64,000 nucleotides of DNA from assembly GCA_963920705.1 (NCBI GenBank), contig OY987225.1, forward strand, positions 2,616,501 to 2,680,500. The letters are read 5' to 3'. Of the stretch, positions 6,977 through 61,932 are shown piece after piece. The notes beneath the pieces were generated by a model. The model saw only the letters and a list, made by a program, of their open reading frames with translations. It ran no database searches and was not told the origin of the DNA. Origin of the DNA: Odiellus spinosus. Its lineage: Eukaryota; Arthropoda; Arachnida; Opiliones; Phalangiidae. The number at the start of each line of letters is the position of its first letter. Position 1 is the first letter of the stretch. The position numbers were made by a program, and so were the translations under genes.

Positions 6977-7483
6977 ATGGAAAAAAAGAAGAATGGTTGT
7001 TTTTGCACAACAAACTACAAGGATGTAACTAATGAACAACTTGGAAAAGGCATGCTTTTAGCTATTGATTACAATCTAGAGAGAGTAGGTGAGTTCAAGG
7101 GTAAATGGAGTACAAAAATTTGGACCGATGTAGTTACAAATTTAGGTGTTTCGAAGACTAAGAACCGAAAGTCTAAAAGTATTTTAAATGCTGGTAAATG
7201 CTACTTTATGAGGTACGCTTTAGACGCCATTGGCTTTAGAACCTATTTTGATGGCATGGTCAAAAAGATGGCAGAGGATACCCAAGATTGTTCTATCCTA
7301 TTGGAAGAATTAATCTCGAGAGTTTCTCGCGAGAATAAATCTGTTGAAATAAATGTGATGCAATCACCACTGATGGTAATAGAGGAGCAATCGATTGTTC
7401 CAAACGGGGAGCAATCGATTAATCCAACATATTCGATTGCTGCGCTCGAGGCGCAATCGATTGTGGCTACCGAGAACAATTAA
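6977..7483 (+). pseudogene. N-terminal segment of the PHD-USP-Ulp1 gene
   Basis: A 168-codon frame beginning MEKKKNGCFCTT. I do not recognise a fold. Residues 1-100 are basic with scattered aromatics (W41, W47, Y70). Residues 125-168 contain four related short repeats of the type EEQSIVP / EQSINPT / AQSIVATEN, encoded by near-identical DNA around CAATCGATTG. The same repeat reappears at about 7905-7960, beyond the inserted MITE, which is the evidence that both parts belong to one gene. The start is the first ATG after a region with stops; no promoter is evident. Confidence 0.5.
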
Positions 7484-7577
7484 CAATATGATTTTATCGG
7501 GGGCTGTCCAATTTCCAATGGACACGCCAACGGTAGTAGAGGAGAAATCTATTGTCCCGTCTATTAATCCGACACAT
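7484..7577 (+). pseudogene. Short linker of the same broken gene before the MITE
   Basis: Contains the block GCTGTCCAATTTCCAATGG. The related GCAGTCCAATTTCCAATGG recurs at about 7969-7987 beyond the MITE, so the linker is probably an internally repeated coding stretch. It ends in GACACAT, the target sequence duplicated by the MITE. Confidence 0.5.
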
Positions 7578-7898
7578 CAGAAGCCGATGAAACCCTCCTT
7601 TGAAGTCTACTACTCTAATGTTCCATATGGGTAAAATTCACAATTTTACGAGATCGGAGGGGTCCTACTTCACACCCCCCTGTCTACTGAAAATTGGAAA
7701 TTCTCTCTCTCCACAAACGACGACGTTTTTTGGACGAACTCCAAGGCTGCTAGAGATATTCGCTCGACGAACTCCAGCTCCGAAAATATCTACCGTTAGG
7801 AGGCGTACGAATCGCGCTTTTTGAAACTAACCCATACAGAGAGGGGTAGACAAGACCAGGGAGTAATAGACTTCAAAGGAGGGTTTCTTCGGCTTCTG
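7578..7898. mobile_element. Palindromic MITE with CAGAAGCCGATGAAACC ends, copy 1
   Basis: 321 bp with long inverted ends (CAGAAGCCGATGAAACCCTC and complement) and a perfect 7-base target duplication, GACACAT, at 7571-7577 and 7899-7905. It lies inside the PHD-USP-Ulp1 coding region and so postdates it. Sister copy at 34711-35046. Short frames across it are not genes. Confidence 0.92.
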
Positions 7899-7935
7899 GA
7901 CACATTCGATTACTGCGCCTGAGGAGCAATCGATT

Positions 7936-9585
7936 GTGGCTACCGAGAATCAATCGGATGTACAAGAGGCAGTCCAATTTCCAATGGTAACGCCAAAGGC
8001 TAGCAAATTCCCAACTAATCTCCCAAGCAAACTCACTGTCCAGTTAGAAAGGGCAAAAAAACATGCGGACCCCAAAGATAGAAAGGATTTAGAGATTAGT
8101 CAAAAAATTAGGACTGAGCTAATGATTAAACCACAACGGGATGACGGAATGCTTTACCCTCCCCTAAAACAAAATGTTAAATTGTATTGTGTTTGCCTTA
8201 AACCTGCCGATAATACGCCTTACTTCGAGTGTACAGGGTGTCAAAAATGGTTCCATTTTAGATGCGCAGGTTTACGGGATAGTCCTAATACGACTAATCA
8301 GGTTAGAAAAGATAAAACCTTTAAATGTCCCCAATGTCAAAAATCCGTTATGAGGAGAGGAATTCAAAATTGTTACCAAAATTGCTGGGTTTCTTCTCTT
8401 TTACCAGCTCTTCTTGAAGTTATTCGGTTAAATCAGACAAGCATATCGAATAAAATTTAATTAGAGTCTCTCGCAAAACTGACTGAGGATTCAATGTCCC
8501 CGGTAAAATCGAAAGAAGTTATCCCACTTCTCCGTCTTCTAGAAAAGATTTCGAGAAACAGATTAGGTTTTGCAACCATGCAAGATCCTCAAGAATTATT
8601 AAACGAGATCAGCTCCCTTTTAGACGACAGTTTTAGTTATAATTTCGAATTTTCGTACCGTTGTTTAGAATGTAAAACTACACGGTCTACCCAAGAAGCA
8701 GCAGTGAAGTATTTTGTTTTAGAAACTTCAAAGACCAAAATTTCTCAATATGCGTTCGAAATGGAACCAAAGGCGACTCGGAAATGCCTTGGAGATGGTG
8801 TAGATAAACACGGTTTTAATTGGCCCTGTACTGGCAAAAACCAAATAATGACACGAGTTAATGATTTACCTCACCCCCACAAAATCTTGGTTTTTTGCTG
8901 CCCTAGGACAGCTGATGAAATATCAAAAAATCGCCAAACTTGTTTGCTAGAGCCACAAATTGAATATTTAGGACATCACTATGAACTGAAAAGTTGTGTA
9001 GTAAATAGGCATAACAGTCATTATGTGGCTTTCGCTAGGCTTATTTCAAATACATGGGTGAGTTACAATGACGACAAAGTTCAAACCTTGGATGATCCTG
9101 AAATTCATGAAGACTGGGTTATGGCCTTCTATAAATTAAAGGAACAGACCACTTCAATTCCTAACGTTTTCCAGAGATCTGTTACGGAATCTGGTCCCGA
9201 CTGCGAAGGCAAACGCAGCACATTCAATGAAGGAACCATGCCTCAGTCAAGTCTTTATTCTAAAACACTCCCCCACCCCCTTAGCGATGTTACAAAATCT
9301 GATATTTCGGTTACTTCTAATTCGGTGATGCAACCTCAAACACCCGATACACAATTATCACATAGTCCGTGGTTGGAGCGAGTTTACAAGAAATTGCAAT
9401 GCTTTAAAGTAGTTTTAATTATCATGGCGCAACACGAGCACTTTTATATGTTTGCTATTAAATATTTAGGAATGTTTGAATCCGTAGTATCATTCGAGCT
9501 GACCATTTATGATTCCATGTCGATTGGCTCAAAGAGACAGCCATACATGAATGAAGCCAAAAATGTCGTAAATGCTTTACCCTAG
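7936..9585 (+). pseudogene. PHD finger plus ubiquitin-specific-protease-like region
   Basis: About residues 85-140 of this segment form a PHD finger: Y-C-V-C, C-T-G-C, then W-F-H-F-R-C and C-P-Q-C in the expected Cys4-His-Cys3 order. Immediately after it, GIQNCYQNCWVSSLLPAL aligns with the USP Cys box (G-L-x-N-x-G-N-T-C-Y-x-N-S-x-L), with the catalytic Cys preserved. Further on come a QDPQELL motif (usual QDAQEFL), a CLEC zinc-ribbon half, and a His box ending SHYVAFAR ... WVSYNDDKV, giving the His and Asp/Asn of the triad. All USP motifs fall in one reading phase, with a break between the Cys box and the QDPQELL part. The stretch at about 9420-9520 (QHEHFYMFAIKY, then TIYDS) looks like the His and Asp part of an Ulp1 fold. 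Confidence 0.7.
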
Positions 9586-9605
9586 CTTCGGGGGACATTC
9601 AACAA

Positions 9606-9818
9606 GTGTGGAAGATTAAACAGTCTAATGATAATTTTCCACCACAGCCCCCATACAACGGCTGGGATTGCGGTCCAATAACGTGTTTGTATGCGAAATG
9701 GTTAGTTGTCAAATACCCGGGTAGGCAAATAGAACATTTACTCGGGGCGCTTAAAGTCAAAGTGCCGACTAAGTTGCCATACCGATACCGTAAATATAGT
9801 TCGAAGCCAACCCTTTAA
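9606..9818 (+). pseudogene. Ulp1/SENP-like C-terminal end with WDCG box
   Basis: Carries PPYNGWDCGPITCLYAKWLV. The D-C-G context is the Ulp1/C48 catalytic cysteine box, where a Q (here within PPQPPYNG) usually precedes the Cys by 5-7 residues. The His and Asp partners are readable at about 9430-9520 in a different phase, so a break separates them. The last ~30 codons are the first unit of the satellite that follows. No transposase, poly(A) signal or terminal repeat was identified downstream. Confidence 0.6.
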
Positions 9819-11270
9819 TCTTGTTAATAGAACATTTACTCGGAGCGCTTAAAGTCAAAGTCCCGACTAAGTTGCCATACCGATGCCGTAAATAGTTCGG
9901 AGTCAACCCTTTAATCTAGTTAATGGAACATTTACTCGGAGCGCTTAAAGTCAAAGTCCGGACTAAGTTGCCATACCGATACCGTAAATAGTTCGGAGTC
10001 AACCCTTTAATCTAGTTAATGGAACATTTACTCGGAGCGCTTAAAGTCAAAGTCCCGACTAAGTTGCCATACCGATACCGTAAATATAGTTCGAAGCCAA
10101 CCCTTTAATCTAGTTAATAGAACATTTACTCGGAGCGCTTAAAGTCAAAGTCCCGACTAAGTTGCCATACCGATACCGTAAATAGTTCGGAGTCAACCCT
10201 TTAATCTAGTTAATAGAACATTTACTCGGAGCGCTTAAAGTCAAAGTCCCGACTAAGTTGCCATACCGATACCGTAAATATAGTTCGAAGCCAACCCTTT
10301 AATCTAGTTAATAGAACATTTACTCGGAGCGCTTAAAGTCAAAGTCCCGACTAAGTTGCCATACCGATACCGTAAATAGTTCGGAGTCAACCCTTTAATC
10401 TAGTTAATAGAACATTTACTCGGAGCGCTTAAAGTCAAAGTCCCGACTAAGTTGCCATACCGATACCGTAAATATAGTTCGAAGCCAACCCTTTAATCTA
10501 GTTAATAGAACATTTACTCGGAGCGCTTAAAGTCAAAGTCCCGACTAAGTTGCCATACCGATACCGTAAATATAGTTCGAAGCCAACCCTTTAATCTAGT
10601 TAATAGAACATTTACTCGGAGCGCTTAAAGTCAAAGTCCCGACTAAGTTGCCATACCGATACCGTAAATAGTTCGGAGTCAACCCTTTAATCTAGTTAAT
10701 AGAACATTTACTCGGAGCGCTTAAAGTCAAAGTCCCGACTAAGTTGCCATACCGATACCGTAAATATAGTTCGAAGCCAACCCTTTAATCTAGTTAATAG
10801 AACATTTACTCGGAGCGCTTAAAGTCAAAGTCCCGACTAAGTTGCCATACCGATACCGTAAATAGTTCGGAGTCAACCCTTTAATCTAGTTAATAGAACA
10901 TTTACTCGGAGCGCTTAAAGTCAAAGTCCCGACTAAGTTGCCATACCGATACCGTAAATATAGTTCGAAGCCAACCCTTTAATCTAGTTAATAGAACATT
11001 TACTCGGAGCGCTTAAAGTCAAAGTCCCGACTAAGTTGCCATACCGATACCGTAAATATAGTTCGAAGCCAACCCATTAATCTAGTAATAGAACATTTAC
11101 TCGGAGCGCTTAAAGTCAAAGTCCCGACTAAGTTGCCATACCGATACCGTAAATATAGTTCGAAGCCAACCCTTTAATCTAGTTAATAGAACATTTACTC
11201 GGAGCGCTTAAAGTCAAAGTCTCGATTGAGATGCCATACCGATACCGTAAATAGTTCAGAACCAATAATT
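9728..11270 (+). repeat. Satellite of 96/98-bp units seeded by a coding sequence
   Basis: About 16 head-to-tail units starting AATAGAACATTTACTCGG. Two variants occur: A, 98 bp with AAATATAGTTCGAAGCC, and B, 96 bp with AAATAGTTCGGAGTC. The order read by eye is A B B A B A B A A B A B A A A B', and the last unit is the most diverged. Unit 1 is the last ~30 codons and stop of the Ulp1-like end. The unit length is not a multiple of 3, so the array does not extend the protein. Internal units are nearly identical, which suggests recent unequal exchange. Confidence 0.95.
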
Positions 11271-11945
11271 AGGTCTCAAAAACTCGCTACCTAAATGCAT
11301 TTCATAAATAATTCATAAACATATAGGTTGCGTAGTTTTACATGGTTAATTTACTCGGATAATTTTAAGTACGTCGCAGTAAATCATTTATACCATGGTT
11401 AGGAAGATTGAATAAGAGGGACGAATTCCATAAGACTTATTCAACCTATCTAATGACTCTCAAAGGATATTATCCAAATGCATCTAACCAGCCTTCCCGT
11501 GGCGAGAGTCGTAAGTAACCACTGTTGTACTACAATGCAAAAATAAATATATATTATGGGCATAGATAAACAACAGTGGTGAAACTAATAGGTTTTGATG
11601 TTCAATCCACTAGCGCGTCGGAAGTTATATTTAAGTTCAAATAAATGGTGTCAGATACCGCAGAACCAACGGACGAGAAGCTTTAGACCACCCTGCCCTC
11701 CCCCTCTGCTTCCGACGCCACTGGTCCGGCAATTAAAAATAATGTAAAATAACAAAAATTGTGACTTTTTTTTCACTCAAATATAGATGGCCAAGTGACC
11801 AGAGTCCCGTCATTCGCGTAAAGTCCGAGAAAAATAATCTCGGGATGTGCGTTTATCCCGGCAAGAGATTGTGATGTTTTAAAATTTGTTAGTTGAGATT
11901 TATTGTGGGAATTTTTAAGAATTCTTCATTTGTAGGATTTTAAGT
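11271..11945. other. Non-coding sequence with small inverted repeats
   Basis: No gene seen. AACCACTGTTGT (about 11517) and ACAACAGTGGT (about 11571) form a small palindrome. CACTAGCGCGTCGGAAG (about 11609) and CTTCCGACGCCACTGG (about 11711) could be the ends of a ~120-bp element, but no target duplication was found. Confidence 0.4.
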
Positions 11946-12106
11946 TTTCTTAATTTTCATAATTTTATTTGATTAAGAAGGAATGAGTTGAATTTAACTT
12001 GACCTATCTCATTCGAAAGAGGAGTTTAATTACTATTACATATAATTATTTCAAAAACTTTCACCGTTTTTGAGCTGAGATATAAAGGGGTTTTTCTACC
12101 CCCACG

Positions 12107-12138
<32 letters not shown>

Positions 12139-12292
12139 AAAAAAGCCGGTTTTTCTTAATTTTCATAATTTTATTTGATTAAGAAGGAATTCGTTGATTT
12201 TAACTAGACCCATTTCATTCGAAAGAGGAGTTTAATTACTATAAGATATAATTATTTCATAAATATTGACCATATTTGAGCTGAGATATAAA
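11946..12292 (+). repeat. Direct duplication of ~140 bp either side of a TA microsatellite
   Basis: 11946-12087 and 12153-12292 are about 90% identical direct copies starting TTCTTAATTTTCATAATTTT and ending GAGCTGAGATATAAAG, offset by 207 bp. The spacer contains a (TA)n run. Confidence 0.85.
12107..12135. repeat. (TA)n microsatellite
   Basis: Uninterrupted TA dinucleotide run of about 14 units. Confidence 0.95.
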
Positions 12293-13082
12293 GAATTATC
12301 AATCCCTAAAGTATTATCTTATAAAACGGGAAATGGTGTTTGAATTTGAAGCTATACTAGCGCTTTCAAGGCGCCATCTATTTGGAAGCGATTACATAAA
12401 ATTTTACTTAAATTTAGTTTAAACGCGTTTTTTACAAATATTTATGTTAGACGAAAATTGAAAATAATGAATATTATCATAAATGATTTTACTTATCCCT
12501 AATTTTAACGTGTTTACCGTAAAATTCGTCGAAAACTAAACCTTGATAGGTAGGTCTGAAAATGGTTTTAGGCCATATCTCGAGTCGCGAGTCTGGCAGA
12601 ATCTGGGACATTTTTTGGGCCGATTCATTTGGTCGAATGAACGACCGATTCTGCCAAATTGACGGCGATCGTTACATCTAGTGTCTGTCTGGGTTTGTAC
12701 GTACGAAGCTGCGGCTGTCATGTCCTGGTATCACGTGAAATTAAAGATTCACATTTATAAACCAAAGTGGACGGAATTACCCGCCACCACTCCTATATAT
12801 TTATAGGCATAGTTTTCGATTAGAAATTGTAGATTTGATCTTATAAACACATAAAATGTGTAATGAGTATGAGACGTAATTTGCCGAAGAGTAACCAATG
12901 AGTAAACAGTAAACACAGTTACTTCCAAGGTCTGTTTTTTCCATGATGGAAGAAACGGACATTGAAAGTAACGCAGTTTTACATACAGTAAAATAATAAT
13001 ATTGGTTTTAAAATTATTCAAAGGCGTGAGGCACGGTAAGTAAAGATACAGGTTAAAAGTTGCCTTCTTTTGCTAGCTTAGC
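12293..13082. other. Intergenic sequence, nothing recognised
   Basis: Two minus-strand frames of 61 and 88 codons (12536-12721 and 12755-13021) show no recognisable motif and are likely chance. The last ~25 bases belong to a dispersed repeat also present inverted at 4905-4945. Confidence 0.45.
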
Positions 13083-16603: not shown

Positions 16604-16926
16604 GGGTTTACCATAGATATGAAAAATAAGCTAGATCCACTACCCTCACGGCCAACCGGGGGGGGGGAAAACGTCGGGAACCGAAGGCTGCCATTTGAGG
16701 GACATTATGTATTTAGCGCCATCTAGTCAAGAAGGATCAGACACTTTAAAAGGGAAAAACCGCGGGAAATTTGAAGGGATGAATTCTCGTTTATGAAAGC
16801 GCGGGAAACCTAAAGATGCTAATAGGCCATTTGAGTAAAAGCAAAAGCGCGGGAAATTACAAAATGATTAAGCAACTTTTTGAGGTTTGAGAGCTTGGGT
16901 AAAGGCGAAATAATAGAAGACTAAAA

Positions 16927-17247
16927 ATGGTTAAAAGTTGTGCTTTTTGCAATGTAAACGCAATAAGAGAGTCGGGAAGGAACAAAAGTGTTCATTTCAT
17001 AGGTATAAAAAAACATTTTAATATAATCAAAATGTACAATAACCGAGGTGCATTTTTATTATTAAGATTTCTTCTGGGCAATAGTGAGTTGCAAAGAAAA
17101 TGGATAGCTGTGGTAGATCGAGACAATTGGAATCCATCTTCATATGATTCAGTGCGTAGTGAACATTTCCAGGAGCAAGAAATTTATGTTCAAAACGGAA
17201 AACACTATCTTAGAGATAATATTGTTCCAACAAAGGTTAATAACTAA
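16927..17247 (+). pseudogene. THAP-like DNA-binding domain of the P-like transposase
   Basis: 106 codons opening MVKSCAFCNVN. The leading C-x2-C pair, the LQRKW tryptophan and the SEHF histidine fit the THAP pattern (C-x2-C ... W ... C-x2-H-F). The third zinc ligand, normally Cys in C-S-x-H-F, reads Arg (VRSEHF), and an extra stretch lies between the Cys pair and the W. Zinc binding is therefore probably lost. The position next to the left end matches P transposases, where THAP is N-terminal and binds near the element ends. Confidence 0.7.
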
Positions 17248-17261
17248 AATTAAGTGGTTGA

Positions 17262-18050
17262 TTGTGCAAAAATAACGTAGAGGGATGGTGCGGGGAATAC
17301 TTCTCCGGCTTCGTTGACTATGGCATATCGGATGCTCTTGGGACCTTTTGTGTTTGCTGGGATATGGTTTCCAATAACAGCCGAGATAGCCAAACTATTG
17401 CGTCACAGGACTTTGGTATTTATGTTAGTAGCTATCAACTGTAGTTGGAAAATACCTCTTGGGTATTTCTTGCTTGATGGTACACCGGGCGGCTCTTGAC
17501 GCAGCTTGTGAAAGAATGTTTAGCCAGGATCAACGCCACTGGAGTTAAGTGCATGCCTTTGGTTAGCGACGGCTTAAGCAGCAATTTAACTATGGCCAAA
17601 ACATTGGGAGCAAATTTGGATACAGAATATTTGGACCCCAGTTTCTCAAATCCTGCGAATCCAATGGGACATAGAATTTATTTAATCCTTAATGGAGGAT
17701 TAAAACAGCCATCAAAAAGTGTTTTACAAATCTGCGCTTTGACAGAGTCATACATTCGGCAAAACGTTTCTGTTGATATGAAATCAAAAAACATTTCACT
17801 ATCCATTGAAATTGCTGTTATGCGAAAGTTGGTAAATGCAAATGTATTTAGCGAGCTTCAAGAGCACATGTTCGATTTTGAAGTTGGTATCGAACACCAT
17901 CGTAATAGATTAATGAAAAACATTATTAATTTGTACGCAAAGGTTCGCCTTCACAAAATAGCCAAAGATAAGAACCTACAATTAAAAAAGCAAGCCATTA
18001 GACATAACTATCAAAATTATTTTTGTTTGAAGGGAAATAAAGCCTGTTAA
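17262..18050 (+). pseudogene. Remnant P/THAP9-type transposase catalytic region
   Basis: Three + strand frames in sequence. 17314-17499 reads GPFVFAGIWFP ... WKIPLGYFLLDG, the early RNase-H-like part. 17496-18050 reads CMPLVSDGLSSNLTMAKTLG, which fits the motif around the second acidic residue (V-x-D-G-x-x-x-N) of P transposases, followed by NP...LKQPSKSV, a diverged form of the H-x-L-K segment. The frames change between segments and the GTP-binding insertion and C-terminal parts are shortened or missing. Identity as P/THAP9 is from motif recognition. Confidence 0.65.
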
Positions 18051-26095: not shown

Positions 26096-29000
26096 TTATT
26101 CAGTTAAATTTAACATCTGTCGACAGTTAAGAAATATTTGTTTGTTTAGCACTTTGGTAAAAACATCCGCGACATTGAATTGAGATTTTACATATTTTAA
26201 TACGAATAAACCCTGATCTAGTTTTTCTCTTATAAAATGGTATCTTATGTCGATATGTTTTGATCTGTGGTTTTCTATCGAATTCTGAGCAAAACATATC
26301 GCAGATCTATTATCACAGTATACTATCGGTGGGTTTTTCAGACTTAAATTAAAACACTTCAATTCATTCAGAATCGGGAGGAGCCACAAAAGTTCCTTCA
26401 CTGCTTCGGAAAGAGCTACGTACTCTGCCTCCATCGTAGATAAGGCTATAGACTTTTGTTTCACTGATCTCCAAAATACAGGGGATTGTCCAAAGAAAAT
26501 GATGTAACCGCAACTAGAACGCCTAGTGTCCCTGTCTGCGCTCCAGTCGCTATCGGAATAGATTATTACTTCATTTTCTGTATCCTGACGATAGATTAGT
26601 CCATAGTCCTTTGTAGACATTACATAACGAGTCAGTTGACACAACCTAGCCCAATGAGCGTAACCTGGATTGGAGTTAAATTGGGATAACGCTGTAACTG
26701 GATACAAAATATCGGGCCTTGTTCTCTGAGCCAGGAACAGTAGACTGCCAATCAGTTGTTTATATGGTATCTGTTTCATTTTCTCCTGCTCATCTAGATT
26801 AATAGGACAATCGTTTCTTGTTAGAATTACTCCTGGATTGAGTGGTAAACTGGTAGGTTCCTCTAATCTTATGTCAAATCGCTCCGCTATAGATTTAATA
26901 TACGTTGATTGGTGGATTTTGACGTGTGCAGAAGAAAAGTCGAATTCGACGCCTAAAAGTTTTTGGATTGGTCCCAGTGACTTGATTTGATATATTTTCG
27001 ATACCGATTCTTCGAATTGCTGTAGAGTACTTTCATTCTTTGCTAATACTGGAAGGTCATCGACATAAACCATGACTATTAGTTTCTTCGGCAAATAATA
27101 GATGCAATTGGTTGACGTTAACTTAGATAATCCCATTTGGTGAAATGTTTTATCTAAGTGAATATACCATTGACGCCCGCTCTGCGGCAATCCATATAAT
27201 GATTTCTTCAATCTTAAGCAAAACGACGATGGATCATGATTTGAAAATCCAGGTATTTGTTTCATGAAGACGTCGTGTTCTAGATTTCCATATAAATACG
27301 CATTTTTAATATCGTAATGTCGATGGACCCATTTAAGTTGAATAACAAATATCGTTATAAGGAGTCTAATTAGTCCGAAATTGATTACCGGCGAAAAAGT
27401 TTGGTCGTAATCGACGCCTTCTACTTGATTATAGCCTTGTGCTACTAATCGAGCTCGGTATCTTCTTATACTTCCGTCGATATTAGTTTTGAGCGCGTAA
27501 ACCCATCTGCATCCTATAATCTTCTTCTCAGGTGGTTTTGGAACTACTTCCATTACTTCCCGTTCGTTTAACGTGGATACTTCTTCCTGCATGGCCTCTT
27601 GCCATTCTTCACTCTGAGGCGATTGAGTAGCTTCGTAAAAGGTTTTTGGGATGACGATATTTGTATAATGCACTTCGGGAGCTCCTAAAATCGTTTCGTT
27701 AGATTTCGTCGAAAAGTTGAAATCTTTGGGGTTATAAGGTAACCCATTCTTCTTACAAAATTTTTCCACTAATTTTGTAGTTTTTAAGCGTTGACCTCCC
27801 GGATATTTATAGTATATATCTGGTTTTCCTTGGTGAACTCCTGTTTTACGTGGAACTATAATTTTCTCCCAGACCTTTATTGGACTCTCTTCCTGGTTAC
27901 TAGAATCGAAAGAATCTTGTGAATCTGATTCGTGTAATTCTAGCCTCTCTGATTGGGTACTTTGATTTGGATCGACAATTTCTGGTACTCCTTCGTGAAT
28001 GATATTTTCAGGTTCTGTGTCTGATTCTTCAGGTTCTGAATCTGATTCCTCGTGAGTAGTACCTGGTATTTCTTCATTATTATCAACATCTGTCAATGGC
28101 CAAATAATCTTCTCTGGAGTTTGTTTCGTAAACGTTATCCCTAGCCGATCTTCGTCGAAGGTAACGTGCTTGGATTCTTTAACATCGTGATCTTCGGGAA
28201 ACCAAACTCTATAACCTTTTGTTCGAGTTGCGTAACCGACAAGAACTCCCATCTTGGCTCGACCTTGAAGTTTGTTTTTGCGTTGTTGAGTGGGTACATG
28301 TACGAAGGTTAAACACCCAATACGGCGTAAATGTGATGCCCGTGGTTTATTTCCATTCCAAACTTCGAGTGGTACCTTGTCGTGTAATTGGGAATGTTTC
28401 AATCTATTTTTCAAATAGGCGGCCGTAGTGACCAATTCTGCCCATAGATACGAAGGTAACTTCGCTTCTTCGATGAATGTGCGTACCATATTTAATAAAG
28501 TTCTATTTATTCGTTCCGCAATACCATTCATTTGAGGTGAATAGGTATTAGTCCTCTCGTGAATGATACCTTCTTCTTGACAATAACTTGTCAGCTCATT
28601 TGCGCAATATTCTAATCCATTATCGGTGCGAATACTTTTGATTTTTCTTCCAGACCATAGTTCGACTTTAGTCTTGAAAGTTTTAAAACGGGCGAAAACT
28701 TCATTCTTCTTCTTCATGGTGTAAACTTCTAAGTAACGACTGTGTTCGTCGATGAAGGTGACAAAATACCGCGCTTGGCCGAGTGAATGTACGTGAGATG
28801 GTCCCCATACATCTGAATGGATTCGATCGAGAATATTTTTGCTCCTTGGTTGGTCCAAAAGTTTATGCGGTTGCTTTGTGCTTTTGGCAACTCTACACGG
28901 TGCGCAAATAGGTAGTGTCCCTTTGATTGATCCTAGATCTTTCAGCATGTTATGGGTCATCATATATTTTAGGTCTCCTTCGTTTACGTGACCAAGTCTT

Positions 29001-30367
29001 TGATGCCATAAATTTAGTTTGGCAGATGAATCTTCAACTGCGGTATTGTAAGTTTCGCTATCTTCTGGTGTATCTTTGATTACGTTAGCCTTGAGGATGT
29101 AAAAATTGTCGATCAATATAGCCTTCAAAGCTAAGTTTCCTTGCGGATTTGTAAATACGAACTCTGAATTTCCCATATGACCTTGAAAACCAGCCTTGTC
29201 GATTAATCTTCCTGATATGAGATTTCTTTTCATCCTTGGGGTATGTATGGTATTCTTTAATGTGTAAATGAGTTCTTTGTCTCCGTATTTAACTTTGATA
29301 TCTACTTCGCCATAGCCTTCTGCCTTCGTTCCTCCTTCTCCGAATGATACGTTTTGGTTGTCGTGAAAAGACGTGTAAGTATTGAACCAATCTCGATTGT
29401 TACAACAATGATGTGTAGAAGCAGAATCGATAATCCAGTCGTTTGTTTTGAAAGTGGTACAAAACGCTGCTGCAAAGAGAGCTGTTTTATCAGCTTTGTT
29501 GTTTGTAGATTGTTTCTCCTTGACCGATCCTTTGGAATCTTGATGTCGAGACGCTTGTTGTTTCTTTCGACATTGTTCTTCTTTGTGACCTCTGTAACCG
29601 CAATAGTTGCACTTTCCAGAAAAACGTTCTTGTTTTCCAATTTGGTTCTGCGCTGAATGAATATTTTGATTAGTTTTGTTCTGCGGCTGCGAGTTATCCT
29701 TTTTCTTGGTATCTCGTTTTGTCAAGAAGGGTCTAGTGATTGTTGCAAATGCTTCTCCCATTTGTCCAGTTGACGTGAGTTTTTGAGCTTGTCGACCATA
29801 TTCAGCAAAAAGCATAGCTTTTATCTTTTCGGGTTTGAAATCGCTATCATTGAATTGGTAAATTTGTAAAACTAAGGGTTCGTAGGATTGTGGTAGGTTT
29901 TCTATTAACTGGTAGGAAACATCTTCTTCGTCTACAGTTTTACCTGCATTTACTAGTTGTCGTTTTACGTTCATCAACCTTGCGACAAAGGCATGCATAT
30001 TTTCATTATCTTGATAGACAGTAGAATAAAATTCCCTCCGAAGGGCCGCAATTCTGGCTCGTGATTTCGGTTCAAATATTTCTTTAAGTGCTGTCCATGC
30101 TTCGTCGGGTGCAGTTATTCCTTCAATAAGGATGCGAAGATCTTCCGTTAAACTTAATGCAATGATGGAGAAAGCCTTGGACTTGCGTTGTCGATACTTC
30201 GTTTGAACATCATCTCCAGTGGTACTGAGGGGAGCTGCTTCAGTATTAAGCACTATCTCATACAGTCCTCTTTCTCTCAAGATCATTTCCAGTTCAAATT
30301 TCCATGACTTATAATTATGGGAGTTTAATTTGGTTACCTGTCCTAACCACGAATGTCCTTCCGCCAT
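26096..30367 (-). CDS. Copia Gag-Pol polyprotein
   Basis: 1423 residues in one frame. Residues ~1-200 are a copia-type Gag (UBN2-like). A CCHC knuckle (CNYCGYRGHKEEQC) lies at ~250. The aspartic protease site is near residue 315 (WIIDSASTHH; D-S-A where D-S/T-G is usual). The integrase starts at ~455 with HQRLGH and has HSDVWGP at ~520, then an acidic linker. The reverse transcriptase (~930-1170) has YVDD, and the RNase H runs from about 1265 to the end with EAEYVALSEA. The order protease-integrase-RT-RNase H defines Ty1/copia. Gag and Pol are in one frame, so any balance between them must come from splicing or processing, as copia itself uses. The ATG at 30367 is the first in frame after the primer-binding site. 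Confidence 0.95.
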   Translation of the reverse strand: MAEGHSWLGQVTKLNSHNYKSWKFELEMILRERGLYEIVLNTEAAPLSTTGDDVQTKYRQRKSKAFSIIALSLTEDLRILIEGITAPDEAWTALKEIFEPKSRARIAALRREFYSTVYQDNENMHAFVARLMNVKRQLVNAGKTVDEEDVSYQLIENLPQSYEPLVLQIYQFNDSDFKPEKIKAMLFAEYGRQAQKLTSTGQMGEAFATITRPFLTKRDTKKKDNSQPQNKTNQNIHSAQNQIGKQERFSGKCNYCGYRGHKEEQCRKKQQASRHQDSKGSVKEKQSTNNKADKTALFAAAFCTTFKTNDWIIDSASTHHCCNNRDWFNTYTSFHDNQNVSFGEGGTKAEGYGEVDIKVKYGDKELIYTLKNTIHTPRMKRNLISGRLIDKAGFQGHMGNSEFVFTNPQGNLALKAILIDNFYILKANVIKDTPEDSETYNTAVEDSSAKLNLWHQRLGHVNEGDLKYMMTHNMLKDLGSIKGTLPICAPCRVAKSTKQPHKLLDQPRSKNILDRIHSDVWGPSHVHSLGQARYFVTFIDEHSRYLEVYTMKKKNEVFARFKTFKTKVELWSGRKIKSIRTDNGLEYCANELTSYCQEEGIIHERTNTYSPQMNGIAERINRTLLNMVRTFIEEAKLPSYLWAELVTTAAYLKNRLKHSQLHDKVPLEVWNGNKPRASHLRRIGCLTFVHVPTQQRKNKLQGRAKMGVLVGYATRTKGYRVWFPEDHDVKESKHVTFDEDRLGITFTKQTPEKIIWPLTDVDNNEEIPGTTHEESDSEPEESDTEPENIIHEGVPEIVDPNQSTQSERLELHESDSQDSFDSSNQEESPIKVWEKIIVPRKTGVHQGKPDIYYKYPGGQRLKTTKLVEKFCKKNGLPYNPKDFNFSTKSNETILGAPEVHYTNIVIPKTFYEATQSPQSEEWQEAMQEEVSTLNEREVMEVVPKPPEKKIIGCRWVYALKTNIDGSIRRYRARLVAQGYNQVEGVDYDQTFSPVINFGLIRLLITIFVIQLKWVHRHYDIKNAYLYGNLEHDVFMKQIPGFSNHDPSSFCLRLKKSLYGLPQSGRQWYIHLDKTFHQMGLSKLTSTNCIYYLPKKLIVMVYVDDLPVLAKNESTLQQFEESVSKIYQIKSLGPIQKLLGVEFDFSSAHVKIHQSTYIKSIAERFDIRLEEPTSLPLNPGVILTRNDCPINLDEQEKMKQIPYKQLIGSLLFLAQRTRPDILYPVTALSQFNSNPGYAHWARLCQLTRYVMSTKDYGLIYRQDTENEVIIYSDSDWSADRDTRRSSCGYIIFFGQSPVFWRSVKQKSIALSTMEAEYVALSEAVKELLWLLPILNELKCFNLSLKNPPIVYCDNRSAICFAQNSIENHRSKHIDIRYHFIREKLDQGLFVLKYVKSQFNVADVFTKVLNKQIFLNCRQMLNLTE

Positions 30368-30463
30368 AATTGTTGCGTTCTTCTTGGTATAGAATGCGCA
30401 CGTGTTCCAACCTGTACAGTCTTCAAATTAAACCTTGGCTGTTCCAAATGACATCTGTATTCC

Positions 30464-33768: not shown

Positions 33769-34710
33769 CCCCTATTCACGTTGTTGAATTAACAACGAGA
33801 TTTGGCCATGGCAAGTGTTGCGCTGATTTTTCTAAGCCAAAGGTGAGGCATTATTTTGATTAGTCATAGGTTCGCCTTTTAATTGAATGCCAAAATCAGA
33901 TTTGCGATTTCTTTGCACAATTCAAAGACACTTTCTGAATGTTTTAGTATGCAAACGTGGCTTATTAAGATAGCTTCATGTATATCTATTTGAAACATGA
34001 TGGGGAGAATATAATGAGACCTAGGCCTATTTTAGCTGTTTAAGATATGAGAGTAGAAAAGAGAATGAGTACGATTCAGGGTAATCAGTCTGACGATACC
34101 TCAGGTAGCAGTCGCCGTATTCGGCGACCACGTGCACAAGGGCTGATTAAAAACAAAACTTTTTAGGAAGCGGGGTATTCTATGCTGGAATCTGGTCTTA
34201 TTAAGTTAGCAACGCTTATACACATCAAAAATGACAGACTTAAAAAAAAAAAAAAATACAAATTACGGATTATTAATAACAATAGATGATATTATAAAAG
34301 AAGTTGTGGTTGCGACGTCTTGTTCAAATGTTGCTAACTACGTCACGAAATCACGTGAGCAGAGAAAATTTCAGCCCCACTTATCGTGGCCGATTGACCA
34401 CCCCTGGAGCGTGTGCACGGTCACTCTTTTGTTAAGTTTTAAAAGGTTTATTGTCTCAACAACGGTACTGCTACAGGTGTTCGCTGACTACAAAAGCGTT
34501 AAAAGATAAGAAAATCAGTGAAAGTGGTCACCACTACTAAGGGAAGCTTCTTTGAACCTATAACAAAAGAGCGACCGTGCACTGGATATAGAAAAAATAA
34601 GCTTAAGAAATGCTCATTGCTCACGAGCGCGATTATGTAGCTGATGACGTCGACAGCAACATGCCATAAGTAAGCCCCTCCTCTTTTATAATATCATCTA
34701 TTGGTTTTGT
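33769..34710. other. Non-coding sequence with an inverted repeat
   Basis: AATAGATGATATTATAAAAG (about 34281) recurs inverted at about 34683-34701, just before the MITE at 34711, so an older palindromic element probably spans 34220-34710 and beyond. The 92-codon frame at 34231 lies across this and has no motif. Confidence 0.5.
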
Positions 34711-35046
34711 CAGAAGCCGATGAAACCCTCCTTTGAAGTCTACTACTCCTATGTTCCATATAGCGCTCCTCTCTGTATGGGTAAAATTCCGAATTTTACG
34801 AGTTAGAAGGGGTCCTACTTCATCCCCCCTGTCTACGGAAAATTGGAAATTCTCTCTCTCCACAAACGACGACGTTTTTGGACGAACTCCAAGGCTGCTA
34901 GAGATATTCGCTCGCCGAACTCCCGCTCCGAAAACATCTACCGTTAGGAGGCGTACGAATCGCGCCTTTTGAGAATAACCCATACAGAGAGGGGTAGACA
35001 AGACCCGGGAGTAATAGACTTCAAAGGAGGGTTTCATCGGCTTCTG
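34711..35046. mobile_element. Palindromic MITE with CAGAAGCCGATGAAACC ends, copy 2
   Basis: 336 bp, inverted ends CAGAAGCCGATGAAACCCTC / complement, flanked by TTTTGT on both sides (6 bases). Copy 1 at 7578 has a 7-base duplication. Overlapping frames on both strands are not genes. Confidence 0.92.
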
Positions 35047-35454
35047 TTTTGTGGCATAATTGTATGCATAATATATTAAAATGACTGCAATTTCTCTTAC
35101 TTTCAGTTCTTTCTTCGTTAAACGGTTATAATCTCAAAATCATAATAATTAAATAAGACCACGTGGAAATAATTTGAAACTAGTCTCGCAATAATACTCT
35201 GAACTTGAAAAAATATAATTCAAATATAAATGGAGTTTGTAACGTATAGCACATACAGCTTTGCATGTTGATTTTAGCGTTCCACACAGACAAATATACC
35301 TAGATAATTATAAATTTCGATAAGATTATATTTTTACCTGGTAGACGAATTAAGGAAATATATAAAACTATAGTGTTTCTTTTATTATGTAAGAGCTCAA
35401 ACATATTACGAAATTTTTTTAATCAAAATGTTTTTTTTTTGATTTTTAATATAG
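35047..35454. promoter_or_regulatory. Region upstream of CLUH
   Basis: AT-rich and non-coding. A TATA-like word occurs at about 35359-35367, and a T-rich tract ending in ATAG at 35451-35454 could be the 3' splice site of an untranslated first intron. No promoter can be proven from sequence. Confidence 0.3.
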
Positions 35455-55700: not shown

Positions 55701-58700
55701 ATAGACGGGGGAATAGATTTGTAAGAAATGAAAGGCTAGAGTGATTCTGACCGTCAGGGTGGTCTAAAAAATTAAATATTTCTTGGAATAGGAAAATTTT
55801 CGGGATTTTAGCCCCTTGTATAGAGTGGTTTGGGGGGACGCATTTTTGAACTGAAAACCAGATATCCCCCTTTGTTGGTGTTCTGGCTTGCTTGGTACTA
55901 TACGAGATAAGAGAAATGTCGGCATCGGGGTTCAAGTTTATGTTAAAGTTAACTTGATACGTGGTAAAGGTCTGAAGTATACAGAGATACCTCTCATAGA
56001 TAGCGTTGTTAGCTGGCTACTTAGAGATAATAATAGGCTTATGGTAAAGCATATAAGGCATCTTTAACATGTGTTTACAAATATTTTCTGCGTTAAATAA
56101 AGATAAGTGTTTAGTCATCAATTATCAAATATCTGTCGCATATTTAATCTCAAAAGAGTGAGAAGACTAAAGCATTTTTTCCAAACTTTAAAAGTAACAT
56201 TGGTGTTCTCCTAATTTCATTCTTTATTGCCTTTGATTGAATGGAAATCAAAGGCAGTTTATAGATGGTTTTATATCAACCATTCCATTTACTTAGTTTT
56301 GTCCACCATGATAGAAACATCCTTTAGATTTCACTTTTGTTCCTCTCTACGCGTCTTTTTTTCATTTAAAGTTTGAATTTTTTCTTGCTTTAGCTGGAGC
56401 GCATTTTATACAATTTAATTTAAAAAAAAAACAAGATTTTTCTGAACCTCTCTGTCAAATTGTACTTCATTCATTTTTAACCAATGAAACGATCGATAAA
56501 CACCTACCTTTATTTGACCCAGAGATAATTTTAAATTATGTAAAAGTGTATTTATGTTTAATAGTCTTGAACTTCTTAATAGTTCTTGATTATATTCTTA
56601 AAGTACACTTGCAACCTGTCTCAATTCGGGCCTCGTCTCGTTCCAAATACGTGAATTTCCTTTCTAAGAATTGAAAAAATTCCCAAACGTGCCGGCACCC
56701 ACATGACGTCAGGTTTTACGATAGAATTTACTCTCGCCATAGAAAATAACGCGTGAAAGTCCGTTTTGATTCGCGTTTCCTGGGAAAAGTTTAAACGAAA
56801 ACGTTTCGTGGTATTTTTATTAATATTAACTAGATCCTAAACTCTAATATTATGTAACATGGCCGAAATATAGCTCTATGGGTGTTTGAACTCGAAAGAG
56901 ACACAAATAATGATACTCTAATCAAAGTGATTATAGTTCATCGGAAATTGAATCTCTAGAACTAGTCCTATAAATTGGTAAGTAGATTAGTATTATTTTT
57001 GAATCTAAACTAAGGTTTTTAAAGCAATGTGGGAACTGTCCCTTACCAAAAAAAGTTAGTCTTAAGAGGTCTTGGGGAAGTCTTTCGGGCACCTTATGTA
57101 GTCTTAAGAGGTCTTGGGGAAGTCTTTCGGGCACCTTATGTAGTCTTAAGAGGTCTTGGGGAAGTCTTTCGGGCACCTTATGTAGTCTTAAGAGGTCTTG
57201 GGGAAGTCTTTCGGGCACCTTATGTAGTCTTAAGAGGTCTTGGGGAAGTCTTTCGGGCACCTTATGTAGTCTTAAGAGGTCTTAGGGAAGTCTTTCGGGC
57301 ACCTTATGTAGTCTTAAGAGGCCTTGGGGAAGTCTTTCATTAAGTTGAAAAGTCTTGGGGAAGTTTTGAAGACTTCCCAAAGTTTTTTGTAGTGTTCTTG
57401 AGGACCTCTTCTGATCAGACTAACCTTTTTCGGTAAGGGGTAGGCCAATGCCTACAAGAAAGCTATGACAACGGAATGAATCATACGCTCAAAATTCTTA
57501 ACTAAGTGGTCTCTCGTAAGGAATCATCAAAAATTGGGATAACTGATACTTTACGAAAGACCCCTTTAGTTTGACTTGTTATAGCGTTCCTGTAGACATT
57601 GGCCTACACAGTTTCAACATAAACACAGGTTATGTATTTATATTAGAATGCCTATTTATCTAAAGAATACTAAGTTTGAAAACCTTAGTTTATATCGAAA
57701 AATAATACTATTCTACTGTAACCGGTTGTTACAATTCTAATTGTTCGGCTAAGTCCTTTACTCCCTAGACTTAACCTATCCAGGTTCTGCCCGCTTCCTC
57801 CTTTATGGTATATCTCTCGAATACTCTGGACCCTTAATTTCCTTTAGAATAACTAAACCGACTGATTCTTAATTGTTTTATTCTGGGTTCACTTAAATAT
57901 TTATAAATACACATTAACAATCGCGTGACTTCGCGAGTCAGTCCATGATCACGGTCACCAACCACCAGCCACACTCCCAATCACACTAAAATATTGAAAA
58001 GGGTTTCTTCCCTTATCACCTCGAATGGGAAGTGGGAGACAACGGTCACGAGAAAATACGACCATTAATAGATTTATCCTTTGCCCCTTTTGGCGCTTGA
58101 CATGAGTCAAAACCACTAGGCAGGTTGCTGTTTTTCGGGTACTTTTATAAGCCAACCAAAGTGTGGATTAAATCCATTTCCCACATTTTTCGGGGTTCAT
58201 TTTGTCGGGTCCGTTGCACTACTTACGACTAGTTCTAGAGACATGTTACATATCACGATCATCATCGTATGATTCAAATTCCGATGTACTATAATCATTT
58301 TGATCAGAATTCTCTTCAGTTGTGTTGCTTTCGAGTTCAAACACGTATAGGGCTGTATTTCAGCCATTATTGTTTTAAACACCTTAAATGTTAGATATTT
58401 TAGTTTAAGATCTAGTTAATATTAATAAAAATACTGCGAAACGTTTTCGTTTAAACATTTCCCAGGAAATGCTAATCAAAACGGACCTTTAAGCGATATT
58501 TTCTATGGCGAGACCAAATTCAATCATTAAACTGACGTCACGCGCGTGCCGGCACCTTCGTGATTTTTTTCAGTGTTTGACGCGAGATGAGGTCCGAATT
58601 GAGACTGGTTGAATGTGTTTTTAAAGAACTATCGCTAGCTAAATGACTAAGCTTTTCCCTGGAAACCGATTATAACAAAATGGGAGTTTTTCTTATACTA

Positions 58701-61660: not shown

Positions 61661-61932
61661 CCTTATGGAAAAAAGTTAGTCTGATCTGAAGAGGTCTTCA
61701 AGAATGCTACAAAAGTCTTGGGGAAGTCTTTAAGACCTCTCCAAGACTTCTTGACGTAATGGAAGACTTCCCCAAGACCTCTTAAGACTACATAAGACAC
61801 CCGAAAGACTTACCCAAGACCTCTTAAGACTACATAAGACTCCCGAAAGACTTCCCCTAGACCTCTTAAGATTACATAAGACACCCGAAAGACTTCCCCA
61901 AGACCTCTTAAGACTTACTTTTTTGGTAAGGG
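61661..61932. mobile_element. MITE of the CCCTTACC / minisatellite family, copy 5 (nested)
   Basis: CCTTATGGAAAAAAGTTAG at left, TTTTTTGGTAAGGGG at right; about three 42-bp units on the opposite strand to copy 4. Confidence 0.88.

Follow-up and report, generated by a model that had tools for sequence, protein, structure and literature searches.

The locus described here raises the question of why a chromatin reader, a deubiquitinase and a SUMO-type protease should be encoded together in one broken gene, and to what kind of genetic element such a gene belongs. A first-pass annotation of 64,000 nucleotides of the Odiellus spinosus genome (contig OY987225.1, positions 2,616,501 to 2,680,500; hereafter the window) had called a PHD finger followed directly by a ubiquitin protease (USP) and an Ulp1-like protease, and had suggested that they might be an anti-silencing passenger of an undescribed mobile element.

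In the region 6977-9818 of the window, an N-terminal domain and a PHD finger are followed by a USP and by the C-terminal part of an Ulp1-type protease (Table 1). The PHD finger and the Cys, His and YNDD boxes of the USP stand where the annotation had seen them (Cys codon 8383-8385, His codon 9019-9021), and both Pfam profiles score over their cut-offs, PHD with 27.2 bits (cut-off 24) on the piece 7870-8457 and UCH with 27.7 bits (E 2.5e-6; cut-off 23.9) on the piece 8461-9582. These two pieces form one frame with a single TAA between them, and when this stop is read through UCH reaches 34.8 bits (E 1.7e-8, profile positions 2-245 of 254), the PHD finger being found at E 1.9e-5. The N-terminal domain is 66% identical to that of a relative elsewhere in the genome (L031; tblastn, domain by domain). 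The Ulp1-like part was upheld by homology but not by its own profile score: H, D, Q and C of the active site can be read across a frameshift near 9555-9585, and the segment shares 50-51% of its residues with the Ulp1 regions of relatives (E 1.6e-17 for one of them), whereas the window pieces gave no Pfam match for Ulp1 at E<=1; its identity is therefore called from the relatives. That the gene is broken is plain from two stops (7481-7483 and 8458-8460), the frameshift and an insertion of 321 bp (7578-7898).

Table 1. Features of the element copy, in window coordinates.
Feature	Position	Strand	Remarks
N-terminal domain of the element protein	6977..7480	+	opened by ATG at 6977, ended by a stop; BLASTP to L029 N-terminus E 1e-9
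Nested short inverted-repeat element interrupting the gene	7578..7898	.	321 bp; 38-nt arms
PHD finger	8167..8355	+	Pfam E 4e-6; placed by tblastn
USP (Peptidase C19) with Cys and His boxes	8350..9138	+	split by stop 8458-8460
C-terminal part of Ulp1-type protease, frameshifted	9368..9731	+	tblastn 9346-9731; C48 in relatives
Internal deletion junction	9368..9369	+	L034 similarity stops at 9369, L030 similarity starts at 9368; 2-bp overlap
98-bp tandem array, 15.7 copies	9728..11253	+	
Two diverged copies of a ~200-bp unit	11945..12293	+	unit forms arrays in termini of relatives
3' terminal inverted repeat	12300..12669	-	outermost 25 bp = 12645-12669
Expected 9-bp target duplication site	12670..12678	+	CGTTACATC; without a second copy in the window

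The arms of the insertion are 95% complementary over their 38 nt, GACACAT flanks it on both sides, and the corresponding site is uninterrupted in one relative (L034). Elsewhere in the window, a frame at 34636-35133 holds the peptide KPMKPSFEVYYS, identical to one in this nested element, and a second copy of the nested element therefore probably lies there.

The genome (443 Mb in 286 contigs), in which mitochondrial COX1 is open when translated by the invertebrate mitochondrial code, was searched with the window protein and with a region that relatives carry and the window lacks, here called the core; the two queries gave 54 and 80 matches, respectively, scattered and in many cases with stops. 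Ten loci of 10 kb (L029-L038) were fetched and, like the window, searched domain by domain (tblastn). The core is present in all ten, if only in part in L034 and L035, and four of them (L029, L030, L032, L035) carry PHD, USP, core and Ulp1 in this order on one strand. One copy, L029, reads from the N-terminal domain through PHD, USP and core to Ulp1 in one uninterrupted frame of 2467 codons, so that a deubiquitinase and an Ulp1-type protease do occur with a chromatin reader in one protein, and the case named in advance as refuting, in which the domains are always encoded by separate genes, is contradicted. The PHD finger of L029 scores 19.7 bits against the cut-off of 24, and Peptidase_C48 passes its cut-off in L029 (E 3.1e-6) and in L033 (E 1e-7); the proposed profile check found PHD and C19 in the window itself and C48 in these two relatives. 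The Ulp1 of L033, a copy without PHD and USP, is also weakly similar to SENP5 (E 7e-4) in an alignment that pairs H, D, Q and C, and the Ulp1 pieces of L030 and L035, which have no Pfam match at E<=1, are linked to the family by homology. Ulp1 is absent from the 10 kb fetched for L031, L034, L036 and L038 and rearranged in L037. Without the deletion, the protein runs from the N-terminal domain through PHD finger and USP to a core with transposase-like motifs and on to Ulp1. In L029 (7290-9323), as well as in L032 and L033, long in-frame 27/54-bp tandem repeats that separate the N-terminal domain from the PHD finger encode a repetitive protein linker.

Compared with these relatives, the window copy has lost about 2.5 kb at the junction 9368/9369, as estimated from the alignments of L030 and L034. 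With this stretch went the core and the beginning of Ulp1, the linker behind the USP being joined to the rest of Ulp1, and it is only because of this deletion that the two proteases adjoin in the window. The possibility that PHD-USP-Ulp1 was an original fusion was rejected, as no relative among the 54 matches listed spans the junction, which falls at about residue 303 of the query: matches to the USP part do not extend past residue 311, and those to the Ulp1 part begin no earlier than residue 294. The first reading is corrected accordingly, having contained neither the deleted core nor the transposon terminus at 12669. The suggestion of a mobile-element passenger holds insofar as the gene belongs to a mobile element; however, the two proteases flank the core in one core-bearing protein and hence look like the element's own domains rather than a separate passenger gene. 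The window copy is a dead, internally deleted transposon copy. It is missing from the 147 USP matches of a genome-wide UCH profile search, presumably because it is fragmented.

Mutator-type transposases are marked by the signature D, D, C(2)H, E. The core starts with a cysteine/histidine-rich stretch and holds the motifs WDxTG, SSDRS, CGxCH and HxEG, which are kept between lineages only 41-46% identical in the core, and of which the D, C, H or E motifs are changed in some copies (L036, L043, L047, L053). We read them as the putative catalytic residues of a Mutator-type transposase, although in CGxCH the H follows the first C after three residues, against two in the canonical C(2)H. None of four core sequences matched a Pfam transposase profile at E<=10, MULE included, and of the 72 genome matches to PF10551 (MULE) not one falls inside the ten fetched loci. 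Alignment of the core by hhalign with one MULE and with four MULEs of the same genome gave a probability of 0.1% each, which is not significant; at this probability the printout against the four pairs both D motifs as well as the C and the H. Because of the missing Pfam match and the hhalign result, the element is not filed as a MULE proper. A Ginger identity was rejected, the four core sequences having no integrase profile match at E<=10. Viral contigs scanned with the core and the USP yielded 44 and 57 pattern-matching stretches, and none encodes a relative.

The family consists of DNA transposons whose terminal inverted repeats are long and whose insertion duplicates 9 bp of the target. Most of the listed genome matches to the 3' region of the window end at 12669-12670, and facing pairs occur in which the inverted repeat is at least 370 bp long. 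The terminal 25 bp has 62 matches in the genome with at most two mismatches, and a wider pattern covering both terminus types, which have CGTCAATYTGSCAGAAT in common, has 106; backward controls gave 0 in both cases. Twenty terminus pairs were fetched and their 9-bp flanks compared: these agree at 9/9 positions in 10 pairs, at 8/9 in 3, at 6/9 in 1 and at no more than 4/9 in 6, every 9/9 and 8/9 case lying at one offset, with both terminus types represented. The ten perfect pairs hold no coding match among the 54 and 80 matches listed, and the presumed end flanks of three coding copies bounded by termini agree in 4/9 positions each. For the window copy, a search within the window found no 5' terminus. 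In the stretch that holds L030 (C18:4884187-4913088), each of the two ends carries an array of a ~199-bp unit at 359 bp from its terminus, the two arrays being in opposite orientation, and some other copies seem to be hardly anything but such inverted arrays. At two places (G000:C18:4781994/4782007 and about 1150-1170 of L032) the termini of two elements stand back to back with few bases between them, as if elements insert beside each other's ends.

We considered whether the gene might instead be a host gene, or a recent host gene family, and not a transposon at all. For the coding copies L034 and L036-L038 no terminus was seen in the fetched DNA (one terminus type searched exactly, the wider pattern among the matches listed), as a host gene would have it. 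Six of the 11 coding copies (the window and L029-L033) do have a terminus in the right orientation, no more than about 4 kb beyond the 3' side of the coding region, and the many scattered and often stop-ridden matches in a single genome are equally hard to square with a host gene, an explanation we regard as very improbable.

The anatomy of the family is not that of a wholly undescribed kind of element, as had been supposed, but fits Rehavkus. According to published accounts, Rehavkus, an outgroup of Mutator, duplicates 9 bp of its target, has inverted repeats, includes a PHD finger in its transposase protein and carries a minisatellite ahead of the 3' repeat (PMC6446971); its inverted termini contain tandem arrays of a 164-bp unit (PMC10218199). 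Here, 9-bp duplications are seen on non-coding copies (perfect in half of the pairs, with three more at 8/9), tandem arrays of ~199 bp lie in long inverted repeats, the PHD finger belongs to the core-bearing protein (E 4e-6 in the window; in one frame with the core in L029), and a minisatellite precedes the 3' repeat, in the form of the 98-bp array in the window and of 27-bp arrays behind the coding regions of L029, L032 and L033. Two differences stand out. First, the USP and Ulp1 of the present element are mentioned in neither Rehavkus description, as far as their accessible parts go (PMC6446971, PMC10218199). Secondly, coding copies here lie in terminus-bounded stretches of about 24-36 kb, unlike Rehavkus-1_TC with its 9.5 kb. 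By anatomy, then, the element fits a Rehavkus-like member of the Mutator group, the comparison with Rehavkus being one of description and not of sequence.

Other transposons share parts of this equipment. Mutator-like elements with Ulp1 (Kaonashi/KIU, VANDAL, and MuDR of hydra and lancelet) likewise belong to a group with long terminal inverted repeats and 8-11-bp duplications and carry their own Ulp1, in some cases linked to anti-silencing, but no USP or PHD finger is reported for them in the accessible text (PMC13317346, PMC2836005); KIU elements, moreover, are of the non-TIR type and encode Ulp1 in a gene of its own (PMC13317346). Ginger1 also has a transposase followed by Ulp1 or OTU, and one Ginger1 combines Ulp1 with PHD (PMC2836005), but its transposase is of the Gypsy-integrase type, for which the present core has no profile match (E<=10). 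In the Trichomonas protein T. vaginalis XP_001314237.1 (transposase_11 plus Peptidase C19), a transposase domain is joined to a domain of the USP class; this protein is of another transposase family, and the accessible text mentions neither PHD nor Ulp1 for it (PMC2836005). Helitrons with VTD or OTU encode deubiquitinases as well, but they are rolling-circle elements and their proteases are of other classes (PMC9741609). We found no report of a USP and an Ulp1 in one transposase in the accessible parts of the literature searched, a body that leaves Repbase Reports and most subscription papers outside.

The USP and Ulp1 might be captured host fragments that the transposon carries neutrally. Mutator-type elements often capture gene fragments (PMC6446971), many copies here are decayed, and close copies show dN/dS (Nei-Gojobori) of 0.35-0.94 over USP, core and Ulp1, with 2.8 between the window and L034 on 12 changes. 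Values of this kind between close copies are as expected of dead copies. Between lineages, the dN/dS of the USP is 0.25 for the window against L030 (dS 0.90) and 0.18 for the window against L029 (dS 2.6, near saturation), dS being saturated between L029 and L030. Selection thus preserved the USP during the divergence of the lineages, and the USP is a maintained part of the transposon protein. The same domain order in diverged lineages and the uninterrupted frame of L029 also speak against neutral carriage, for which we see only a slight chance.

The closest PDB sequences to the PHD finger of L030 are those of PPS, BPTF, PHF2, DIDO1, PHF8, SPP1, TAF3 and CXXC1, that is, readers of the H3K4 type, and in the alignment with BPTF aromatic residues occupy three of the four cage positions. 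The closest PDB sequence to the USP of L030 is ubiquitin hydrolase 8 (Ubp8), the SAGA H2B deubiquitinase; the window USP finds the Ubp8 entry at E 0.02 only. These resemblances suggest a putative reader of methylated H3K4 beside a deubiquitinase of histone type. They would also suit a purely targeting role in the same element, in which the PHD finger would direct insertion towards promoters with H3K4 methylation and the USP would remove H2B ubiquitin there, silencing playing no part; maize Mu insertions co-localise with open chromatin (PMC2774946). This would leave the Ulp1 unexplained, and we consider it distinctly improbable.

Both the ubiquitin and the SUMO pathway take part in the silencing of transposons. 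Our preferred reading, held tentatively and at somewhat less than an even chance, is that of a Rehavkus-like transposon whose PHD-USP-core-Ulp1 protein would use the core as transposase and the proteases to counter silencing; the anti-silencing role is a leading guess, albeit the one with the largest share among the readings considered. According to this proposal the core would cut and join the element ends and the PHD finger would hold the protein on H3K4-methylated nucleosomes, where USP and Ulp1 would strip ubiquitin and SUMO from chromatin or from silencing proteins at the element, and perhaps also deconjugate the transposase itself. By such deconjugation the element would stay expressed and mobile; the window copy, being without a core, could at most have been mobilised by other copies. 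In plant Mutator elements, VANC genes with Ulp1 direct methylation loss on related elements, with no role established for the Ulp1 itself in that source (PMC13317346), and for the VTD deubiquitinases of Helitrons activity has been measured (PMC9741609).

The proteases of the same element could also serve in another way, by shielding the transposase from ubiquitin- or SUMO-driven turnover or by acting on repair factors during excision and insertion. Uses of this kind have been proposed for the Ulp1 and OTU of transposons (PMC2836005), and Helitron VTDs have been proposed to protect proteins needed for transposition (PMC9741609); a protease fused to its transposase would act in cis, and dN/dS below 1 is compatible with any such use. 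By itself this leaves the PHD finger without an explanation, and we judge it rather unlikely, if worth keeping in mind beside the preferred anti-silencing role.

The same genome offers further transposons with comparable domains. In 36 of the 147 USP matches a Helitron N-terminal domain precedes the USP on the same strand at a distance of 2.6-3.8 kb, and none of the 147 lies within 5 kb of such a domain in any other arrangement; a Helitron with a USP is found at L079 (G000:C259:15201-18400), among other loci. One Helitron-linked USP follows the helicase end in one frame, and its likeness to the USP of the present element is remote (E 0.014), which makes at least two separate entries of USPs into the transposons of this host probable. 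The window itself holds a second transposon with a chromatin-reader domain, a Copia-type element whose gag-pol frame runs uninterrupted for 1443 codons (26099-30427, minus strand), and in this frame a methyl-CpG-binding domain (PF01429, E 1.2e-8, residues 853-909) lies between SH3-like and reverse transcriptase domains. It also contains remnants of a P-element/THAP9-like transposase at 16903-18047 on the plus strand (THAP E 4.8e-7, RNase H-like E 1.1e-6, THAP9_C E 1.5e-6) and two 42-bp tandem arrays of closely similar units in opposite orientation (57057-57338 and 61763-61915).

In conclusion, beside a known Rehavkus anatomy, the apparent novelty of this family is the combination of USP and Ulp1 in one transposon protein. 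It is conceivable, although we would sooner doubt than assert it, that a single polypeptide with histone reader, deubiquitinase, transposase and deSUMOylase works as a self-contained machine directed to chromatin and strips two silencing-linked modifiers at its own insertions, and that USPs entered the transposons of this host more than once, which would look like a recurrent need for deubiquitination. A transposase so equipped, its USP being under purifying selection between lineages, would allow a direct test of whether an element counters silencing through deconjugation at its own copies.
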